Source: an uncultured Halieaceae bacterium (GTDB taxonomy: Bacteria; Pseudomonadota; Gammaproteobacteria; Pseudomonadales; Halieaceae). Taken from it: DNA of 64,000 bases. Location of the stretch: the NCBI GenBank assembly GCA_913031575.1, contig CAJWEV010000006.1, positions 1 through 64,000 of the forward strand, written 5' to 3'. The notes below the pieces were generated by a model. The model was not told where the DNA came from, did not search any database, and worked only from the letters and a program-made list of their open reading frames with translations. Within the stretch, counting starts at the first letter, position 1; every line of letters starts with the position of its first letter. Position numbers and translations under genes: made by a program. This document shows positions 9,347 to 25,045 of this stretch, in pieces.

Positions 9347-10391
9347 GCAGCGAGGGGCAGCTCTCGTCATTGCGCTACTCGTGTTTGCGCTGGCGGCGGC
9401 GCTGATGGTGGGTGTGCAGCGCGACTTCAATCTTCAGTTGCAGCGCAGCACCAACACCTTTTTTGCCGAGCAAGGTTGGTCATTTCTGCTGGGTGCCGAG
9501 ACGCTCGCTGAATTGGCATTGAGGTTTGATGTCGACGAGGACGCAAAAAGTGATACCCCGGTGGATTCTTTGCAGGAGTTGTGGGCGCAACCGCAGGCAC
9601 CGTATCCACTCGACGGAATCGGCTTTTTAAGCGGTGATATTTATGACCTGCAAGGCCGCTTCAACATCAACAGCCTCGTTGATCAGTCCAATAATCAGAG
9701 CAGTGACCCCAACACGCCGCTGGGTGAAGCACCCGCGCAGCCCGTGGGAGAGACGGGGGAAACTCGACGCTTCAACGCCGAGCAACGCGTGTTTTTGCGA
9801 CTGCTGCTAGCGATTGATGAAGCGGAGCTGAGTCGCAGTGAGGCGACACGTCTCGTTGAGCGCATTACGGACTTTGTCGATCCAGATCGAAACCCGCGCA
9901 TGGAGGGTGCCGAGGATGAGCGCTACCTCTCCTCGGCGTTCCCCTACCGTGCACCCAATCGGCCGCTGGCCAGCGTGAGTGAGCTCAGAGCTGTCGATGA
10001 GATCACGCCAGAGCTGTACCGCCTAATCGCCCCGTTTTTAACCGTTTGGCCCGCAGAGGGCAGCACCGTAAATCTTCTGACCGCACCGCCTGAAGTGTTG
10101 GCCGCGCTCAATGAGGACGATGCTCTGGAGCCTTTATCTGCTCAACAGGTCGCACGCATCATCGAACTGCGCGACGGCGGCATGCTCAATGAGGTCGATA
10201 CCTTCATTGAGGATGTCATGTTTTCTGATGGCACAACCGACGAGTTACGTGATCTGGTCGATATAAAGTCATCGTGGTTTCTACTCGATGCTCGTGTCGA
10301 GATTGCTGATAGAGAACGCCGCCTGTACAGTGTCTTGCATCGTCAAGGCCGCGCCATTTCGGTTGTACATCGAACCGAGGGAGAGCTTTAG
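9324..10391 (+). CDS. gspK: Type II secretion system minor pseudopilin GspK
   Basis: KQRGAALVIALLVFALAAAL, FNINSLVD and NLLTAPPEVLAAL motifs. Confidence 0.93.
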   Translation: MSCRHSSKQRGAALVIALLVFALAAALMVGVQRDFNLQLQRSTNTFFAEQGWSFLLGAETLAELALRFDVDEDAKSDTPVDSLQELWAQPQAPYPLDGIGFLSGDIYDLQGRFNINSLVDQSNNQSSDPNTPLGEAPAQPVGETGETRRFNAEQRVFLRLLLAIDEAELSRSEATRLVERITDFVDPDRNPRMEGAEDERYLSSAFPYRAPNRPLASVSELRAVDEITPELYRLIAPFLTVWPAEGSTVNLLTAPPEVLAALNEDDALEPLSAQQVARIIELRDGGMLNEVDTFIEDVMFSDGTTDELRDLVDIKSSWFLLDARVEIADRERRLYSVLHRQGRAISVVHRTEGEL

Positions 10392-22861: not shown

Positions 22862-23572
22862 TTAGTAAAGATCACGAGCGAGCACGGCACAGACCGCCGT
22901 ATCGACGCTCATGATGCGATTACCAAGGTGTGCGACTGTCGCACCCAGCGATCGCGCCAATTCGATTTCGTAGTCAATGAAACCACCCTCTGGCCCAACC
23001 AGTAGGCAGCGCTGTTTTTCATCTTCGGTTTGCAGACGATACTCACCACCGGGGTGCGCTATGACCAGGTCGCGCTCCGCTGCGATGCTCGACAGTGAGT
23101 CTTCTATAAACGGTTTGAAGCGCCGGTGTTCGGTAACGACGGGAAGTATCGTGTCACCCGCTCGCTCTAAACCTTGGATGAGCGCGGACTCTACCTTGCC
23201 TTTTTTTAGGAGAGGTGATTGCCAGAAGCTTTTCTCGACTCGGTAAGAGTGGATAAGATGAAGTTCATCGACGCCAAACTCGGCCACTGTCCGCAGTATT
23301 CGGCGAAGCATCTTTGGACGCGGTAAGGCCAGCACGAGTCGTGTTGGATGGCGCGTTGGCGGCGACTCGGTCAACGCTACATCGAGTTGGACTATTGCTG
23401 AATCAATGGCGGTAACGGTCCCGATGCCCTTATGGCCATTAATCAACCCAACTCGCAGCGATTGTCCCAATGCAGGTTGAATGACGTTTATGACGTGTTG
23501 CGCCCGATAGTCGTTTAGACGGACCGAATGCTCGTCAGTCCAATCGCTCTCTCGCAATAGGATAATATTCAT
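22862..23572 (-). CDS. rsmE: 16S rRNA (uracil1498-N3)-methyltransferase RsmE
   Basis: RsmE/SPOUT motifs LVGPEGGFIDYEIELA and LGNRIMSVDTAVCAVLA; ATG at 23570-23572. Confidence 0.93.
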   Translation of the reverse strand: MNIILLRESDWTDEHSVRLNDYRAQHVINVIQPALGQSLRVGLINGHKGIGTVTAIDSAIVQLDVALTESPPTRHPTRLVLALPRPKMLRRILRTVAEFGVDELHLIHSYRVEKSFWQSPLLKKGKVESALIQGLERAGDTILPVVTEHRRFKPFIEDSLSSIAAERDLVIAHPGGEYRLQTEDEKQRCLLVGPEGGFIDYEIELARSLGATVAHLGNRIMSVDTAVCAVLARDLY

Positions 23573-23582
23573 GGCCGCCGGT

Positions 23583-23774
23583 TTACGCCGCCCAGAGGTC
23601 GTAATCGTCAGCATCAACAACGCGTCGACTGACGATGTCTCCGGGCTTCAAATTCGCGGTTTGGGCAATGTAGACCACACCATCGAGTCGCAACTGCTTA
23701 AGCGCGCGCTCTGAGTCAACGAGTGCCGTTGGCCAGCCCCAAGAGAGGAGGCCCACTTTTTGCGGATGTGACAT
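23583..23774 (-). CDS. Mini-RimO-like ORF: N-terminal tip plus C-terminal TRAM end of ribosomal protein S12 methylthiotransferase, internally deleted
   Basis: MSHPQKVGLLSWGWPTALVDSERALKQLRLDGVVYIAQTANLKPGDIVSRRVVDADDYDLWAA*. First half matches the RimO N-terminus ([28 protein letters not shown]); second half matches the RimO C-terminus ([33 protein letters not shown]). Confidence 0.72.
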   Translation of the reverse strand: MSHPQKVGLLSWGWPTALVDSERALKQLRLDGVVYIAQTANLKPGDIVSRRVVDADDYDLWAA

Positions 23775-23810: not shown

Positions 23811-24407
23811 TCACAGCGTTAGGTTTCGTTCGCTACCGAAGGTACGGATCGGTAATTGTCCGCGCAATCGCTTGAGTAAATCCTCTGCCTCATCTTTATT
23901 GAGGAATTCCCCCAAACTGGTTCTTGTTTCTTTATTGTGAAGCCATAGCGCTGGCCCTTCCCACTGGTGTTTCGCTGTAATGACATTCAACGCAGTGTCA
24001 TCACGTTCCCAAAGCCAGGTTTTCTTTGGCAAAAAATAGCCTTTCTCAATCTTGACGCTACTGTCGGAAACGGTCACTACCTGTCGGTACTCAAGGTTCC
24101 AGTTGACGTAATACAGCGCAGCTGAAAGTGCGATGAGCTCGGCACCCGCAAACGGGAGTATCGGCCACGCTCCAAGAAGCGTGAAACCAATCGCTGCACC
24201 GAGTGATGGAATGGATATGGCAATCAGTACGTAGAGATTGGCACGCCAAGTTGAGCTTTTGTTCGGCTTTACCACAATGACTCTGGCGTCGCTCTCTGTA
24301 AATTCGTCAATCACTTCGCTTCCTTGCGGTGCGGAATCACCTGGCTCTAAATTCCAAACGGTATCGGGGAAAAGGCCGAAAGCCAATTGCCTGTTGAGGG
24401 CGCGCAC
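23811..24407 (-). CDS. DUF2244 family membrane protein (start uncertain; overlaps upstream gene)
   Basis: Two central TM helices and flanking domains resembling DUF2244 proteins (VTVSDSSVKIEKGYF...). Confidence 0.7.
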   Translation of the reverse strand: MRALNRQLAFGLFPDTVWNLEPGDSAPQGSEVIDEFTESDARVIVVKPNKSSTWRANLYVLIAISIPSLGAAIGFTLLGAWPILPFAGAELIALSAALYYVNWNLEYRQVVTVSDSSVKIEKGYFLPKKTWLWERDDTALNVITAKHQWEGPALWLHNKETRTSLGEFLNKDEAEDLLKRLRGQLPIRTFGSERNLTL

Positions 24408-25045
24408 AACTTGAGTCGTGTGGAATGAAGTAGCAGGCGATCGGAGGCCTCCAACGCTTCGGGATGGGCGTACATATCGCAGCCAATAATCGGATGTCCC
24501 AGAGACTGCATGTGGATGCGCAACTGATGCGAGCGGCCTGTTACAGGTTTTAATTTGACCAAGCTTCGGTTGGTAGCCCGCTTCAGTACCTTAAAGTAGG
24601 TTAACGCGTGCTTGCCGCGTTTCTCACAGATTATTTGTTTGGGTCGGTTGGGCCAGTCGGTTGCGATGGGCAGTTCGATTGAGCCCTTGTCCTCTGCTAC
24701 CTCTCCCCACACAATCGCGGTATACACTTTTTCGATCTGGCGCCTCTGGAATTGCCGAGCCAGCTCGGAGAGGCTTTCGCGGCGTTTTGGGACCACCATG
24801 AGGCCCGAGGTATCCAAGTCTAGACGGTGAACAGCCTGTGCACCGGGGTATCGGAGTTGTAGTCGTTTGATCAAACTGTCGTGATTGAGTGGGTGTCTGC
24901 CGGGGACACTTAGTAAATGATGCGGCTTGTCGACCAGCAGTAGGTCAGTGTCTTCATAAATGAGATGGATTGGTGCTTGGCTGTGTGGAACGAGATAGGG
25001 CGGTAACTCGTCGATTGAATCGTTTGTCTGAGCTGATTTACTCAC
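24347..25045 (-). CDS. RluA-family pseudouridine synthase
   Basis: Catalytic HRLDLDTSGLMV motif; PVTGRSHQLRIHMQSLGHPIIGCDMY. Confidence 0.93.
   Translation of the reverse strand: MSKSAQTNDSIDELPPYLVPHSQAPIHLIYEDTDLLLVDKPHHLLSVPGRHPLNHDSLIKRLQLRYPGAQAVHRLDLDTSGLMVVPKRRESLSELARQFQRRQIEKVYTAIVWGEVAEDKGSIELPIATDWPNRPKQIICEKRGKHALTYFKVLKRATNRSLVKLKPVTGRSHQLRIHMQSLGHPIIGCDMYAHPEALEASDRLLLHSTRLKLCAPSTGNWLSAFSPIPFGI

Follow-up and report, generated by a model that had tools for sequence, protein, structure and literature searches.

When two ends of a conserved enzyme gene are found joined in a single open frame with the core between them missing, is the product a small protein that has been kept, or simply what is left of a gene that has been lost? 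The window analyzed here (the whole stretch of 64,000 nucleotides, from an uncultured Halieaceae bacterium) raises this question at a minus-strand ORF of 63 codons (23583-23774). It reads MSHPQKVGLLSWGWPTALVDSERALKQLRLDGVVYIAQTANLKPGDIVSRRVVDADDYDLWAA before its stop and joins residues 1-32 to residues 409-439 of RimO, the ribosomal protein S12 Asp88 methylthiotransferase (NCBIfam TIGR01125). The initial annotation put the missing central part at about 375 residues; measured against congeneric RimO (439 aa, 1320 nt with the stop), the exact figure is 376 codons (1,128 nt). The features of the locus are:

22862..23572, minus strand: rsmE, 16S rRNA methyltransferase family, intact and directly downstream of the mini-ORF (Pfam Methyltrans_RNA, E=4.6e-29)
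23583..23678, minus strand: RimO C-terminal remnant, RimO codons 409-439 and the stop, covering the latter half of the TRAM domain (Pfam and congener alignment)
23679..23686, minus strand: apparent deletion junction, one remaining copy of TCGATGGT (an 8-bp direct repeat at both rimO ends in intact relatives)
23685..23774, minus strand: RimO N-terminal remnant, codons 1-30, from the start codon up to the repeat (comparison with relatives)
23811..24407, minus strand: conserved gene, immediately upstream of rimO throughout the relatives examined (identity to the G017 copy, 94%)

Both halves are related to RimO beyond chance, as had been recognized from the sequence. Residues 1-33 of the mini-ORF match the N-terminus of congener RimO at 73% identity (E=2.0e-9), residues 29-63 match its C-terminus at 77% (E=2.9e-14), and in each congener genome these two matches sit in a single 451-aa frame. 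The Pfam model TRAM_2 matches residues 31-62 above its cut-off (E=1.4e-6), corresponding to the second half of the TRAM domain at the RimO end; only model positions 29-60 of 63 are present, so the C-terminal TRAM domain is incomplete. Relative to all close relatives, the N-terminal remnant carries the changes F9L, V10L, L12W, C14W, K16T, I24A, T26K and F30L, and GWPT does indeed stand where RimO has GCPK. The mini-ORF is therefore like congener RimO in its locus, its neighbors and its first 32 and last 31 codons, but it lacks the 376 central codons and with them the radical-SAM motif CxxxCxxC (C150/C154/C157 in G017 RimO). Of the three cysteines in the N-terminal domain of G017 RimO (C14, C50, C79), two are absent and the third is W14. 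Measured as a RimO, it falls short in full-length score, radical-SAM motif, N-terminal cysteines and complete TRAM domain; because the radical-SAM motif and all of the N-terminal cluster cysteines are absent, it cannot be a methylthiotransferase.

The neighboring proteins of the window were searched against 14 congeneric loci, where the gene order is peptidyl-prolyl isomerase, PdxJ, RluA-like pseudouridine synthase, the counterpart of ORF 23811, rimO and rsmE, with msrA following on the other strand. All close relatives examined have a complete rimO of 439 aa at the exact position of the mini-ORF, between the same neighbors, and in the closest of them its stop lies 10 nt from the rsmE ATG. The same spacing, already reported by the initial annotation, is found in the window, where the ATG is at 23572 and the identity of the neighbor is supported by Pfam. 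Because both the gene order and the 10-nt spacing match those of relatives, the window represents an in-place deletion rather than inserted DNA or foreign parts fused together, and the mini-ORF, which shares locus and neighbors with the intact gene at the 14 congeneric loci, can be classed as a remnant on this ground. No promoter- or terminator-like site was found near it. In a relative, the rsmE of G052 (L068, G052:C220, 4591-5026) seems itself to be internally deleted: a match to residues 47-171 is absent and the flanking matched pieces are ~100 bp apart.

The join falls in TCGATGGT, present at both rimO ends in near intact relatives. In G017 rimO, the two copies lie at nt 89-96 (codons 30-32) and nt 1217-1224 (codons 406-408); the window keeps one. 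In relatives the sequence is CGATTCGATGGTTACGAG starting at codon 29 and GAAATCGATGGTGTGGTC starting at codon 405, as against CGACTCGATGGTGTGGTC in the window; by codon, the nearest relatives have CGA TTC GAT GGT TAC at codons 29-33 and GAA ATC GAT GGT GTG at codons 405-409, and the window has CGA CTC GAT GGT GTG at the join. The ancestral state was inferred from G017, G018, G050 and G014, which retain the repeat at both ends; some relatives have a mismatch in one copy (the second in G047 and G063, the first in G052). A repeat at both ancestral ends with a single copy at the join is the signature of a short-direct-repeat deletion, and points to a single event of this kind, 1,128 bp in size, as what removed the rimO core. 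It probably arose when the two copies misaligned by slippage (or annealed as single strands), without the help of RecA. Loss of DNA between short direct repeats in the absence of RecA is documented for E. coli (PMC5426353), and there as here a single repeat copy marks the join while the DNA between the copies has disappeared, although the present case is reconstructed from relatives rather than observed as an event.

The preserved reading frame, to which the initial annotation had drawn attention, is real in that the frame is open, but it carries no evidential weight. Read as codons, both repeat copies give (F/I)-D-G, and since their phase is identical the deletion product is in frame automatically. 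Further, the longest direct repeats in G017 rimO are of 8 bp and 7 of the 10 such pairs are in phase, making an in-frame product a likely outcome that is uninformative about selection.

A search for a full-length rimO elsewhere in the genome, using the family model and a congener protein as query, found none in the 79%-complete assembly, only MiaB and the two remnant halves; the sole TIGR01125 match is MiaB on contig C63 (244.6 bits, below the cut-off of 356.95), and the mini-ORF itself gives no match. As the metagenome-assembled genome is 79% complete, a rimO that has moved elsewhere could in principle lie in the part that is missing. Across the genus, RimO scores above the cut-off in 48 of 57 genomes; among the nine without it, some have the gene truncated at a contig end and others lack the whole locus (G001, G020 and G062 have no RimO match and no neighboring genes either, the locus being simply not assembled). 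At the level of the family, 55 of the 58 genomes searched, the window genome included in that number, carry RimO, the other two exceptions being contig-end fragments. No other mini-RimO frame was seen in the genus or in GTDB genomes: the matches in relatives come from fragments of complete genes or from the ends of contigs, the distant GTDB loci being judged from their search matches. The rimO of G065, which has a frameshift and stops, was rejected as a loss; miaB and msrA are also broken by frameshifts or stops in this genome (loci L092 on G065:C17 and L093 on G065:C10), so sequencing error is likely.

One further loss was identified, in G064 (L091, G064:C6:62000-80000, ~10280-10313), where ATGACACATCCCGATTTAGTCGTCC lies between the upstream ORF and rsmE. 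In this near-complete deletion roughly the first five rimO codons now abut the final few bases ahead of rsmE, and the relatives G021, G023 and G068 have an intact rimO at the locus. Because the clade and the join both differ, the loss in G064 is independent of that in the window. Nothing relevant was found in the literature on rimO loss.

Selective constraint on the remnant was measured with a tree built from six flanking genes (in which five congeners form the sister group of the window) and a codon branch model with branch lengths taken from the same genes. Window-specific codon changes in the remnant number 13 nonsynonymous to 8 synonymous, vs. 63 to 148 in the six flanking genes (Fisher p=0.006). 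For the whole mini-ORF, omega on the window branch is 0.49 vs. 0.078 elsewhere (2dlnL=28.3, p=1e-7), a shift that persists when the window branch length is left free (p=0.0004). The N half has an omega of 0.63 vs. a background of 0.015 (p=3e-11) and does not differ from 1 (p=0.18); the C half has 0.40 vs. 0.16 (p=0.057) and does differ from 1 (p=0.02). The mini-ORF has thus lost constraint in the way expected of a pseudogene, most clearly in its N half, where C14W removes a cluster ligand; several of the changed positions hold one and the same residue in each of the 12 aligned relatives. Nine other tips were tested, none of which showed a significant omega shift in the same codons, and the flanking genes on the window branch have omegas of 0.06-0.14, five of the six without a shift. 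The sixth, the RluA-like gene (24347-25045 of the window), which overlaps the start of ORF 23811, has a mildly raised omega on this branch (0.14 vs. 0.065, p=0.006).

A model of deletion followed by neutral evolution places the event near mid-branch (neutral fraction 0.52, with 0.3-0.8 within 2dlnL ~2.8); a single event time shared by both halves fits (separate times, p=0.22) and zero neutral time is rejected (2dlnL=45). The deletion, which had been called recent, is not very recent: it falls near the midpoint of a branch on which synonymous divergence is heavy. That the frame has stayed open over this time is unremarkable. Only ~4% of random changes in the mini-ORF sequence create a stop, and in neutral simulations start, frame and stop were all intact in 52% to 29% of cases after 12 to 24 changes, so the open frame is weak evidence against a relic. 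Like gene-remnant pseudogenes in bacterial operons, the mini-ORF lies in place between intact syntenic flanks under relaxed constraint, but its frame is open, since both repeat copies are in one phase.

We consider it very likely that the mini-ORF is a decaying rimO remnant left by a single in-place deletion, an ordinary gene-loss relic, and we infer that the 63-codon frame makes no functional protein. An alternative is that the genome, a 2.14-Mb assembly of 88 contigs taken as metagenome-assembled, hides a full-length rimO through collapse or misbinning. This is extremely improbable, and the least probable of the explanations weighed here. An 8-bp repeat is far below usual assembly word lengths. 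A misjoin would, moreover, carry conserved RimO ends, yet the retained ends look dead, with 24 window-specific changes that include the cluster cysteine and residues invariant in 12 of 12 aligned relatives, and the neighbors look normal, with no constraint shift in five of six flanking genes (RluA slightly raised). The deletion is very probably real, judging from the sequences on both sides of it.

The initial annotation had offered either an in-frame deletion relic or a retained miniprotein, and it is the former that synteny, the 8-bp repeat and the branch-specific loss of constraint uphold. That the N-terminal tip and half TRAM domain were kept for a new role, such as RNA or ribosome binding, is highly improbable, even with start, frame and stop intact and the half TRAM domain still above the Pfam cut-off: evolution of the N half looks neutral, a comparable frame was seen in none of the other genus members searched, and G064, which lost the gene independently, retains only about five of its codons and no counterpart of the mini-ORF. 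AlphaFold2, given the single sequence without an alignment, returned no confident fold (mean pLDDT 48, pTM 0.18), though this is weak evidence. The C half does keep somewhat more constraint than neutral, a point in favor of retention, but the deletion-then-neutral model accounts for both halves and the shared event time explains the excess adequately. The same excess, together with the unchanged 10-nt spacing and the want of any promoter- or terminator-like site nearby, could suggest a translated leader, kept to couple translation of the upstream operon genes to rsmE, and for this we see a small chance, slightly better than for a new protein role. The C half seems less relaxed than the N half, but not significantly so; inheritance alone preserves the spacing after a deletion; and G064, with almost the entire rimO removed, has rsmE next after the upstream gene. 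Translation and retention of the RimO-derived 63-aa frame in either form, as half a TRAM domain or as a coupling leader, is altogether unlikely; were it true, an enzyme gene would have given rise to a small protein through an in-frame deletion. As a gene-loss relic, the mini-ORF is instead a clean example of why two protein ends fused in one open frame cannot be taken as a sign of function: the frame is set by the very repeat behind the deletion.

For the organism, the consequence of the loss is that Asp88 of S12 is probably unmodified. The S12 gene itself, rpsL, was also looked for to see whether it had changed; it is absent from this assembly and from those of G064, G017 and G014, one of these being rated 100% complete. 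Such a loss should be tolerable, because an E. coli rimO mutant, which has no S12 methylthiolation, grows like the wild type (PMC10002905). By analogy with that mutant, and given the second loss in G064, rimO would be a dispensable ribosome-modification gene. Two independent losses of rimO in one marine genus, in a family where 55 of 58 genomes keep it, would offer natural material on the purpose of S12 methylthiolation.
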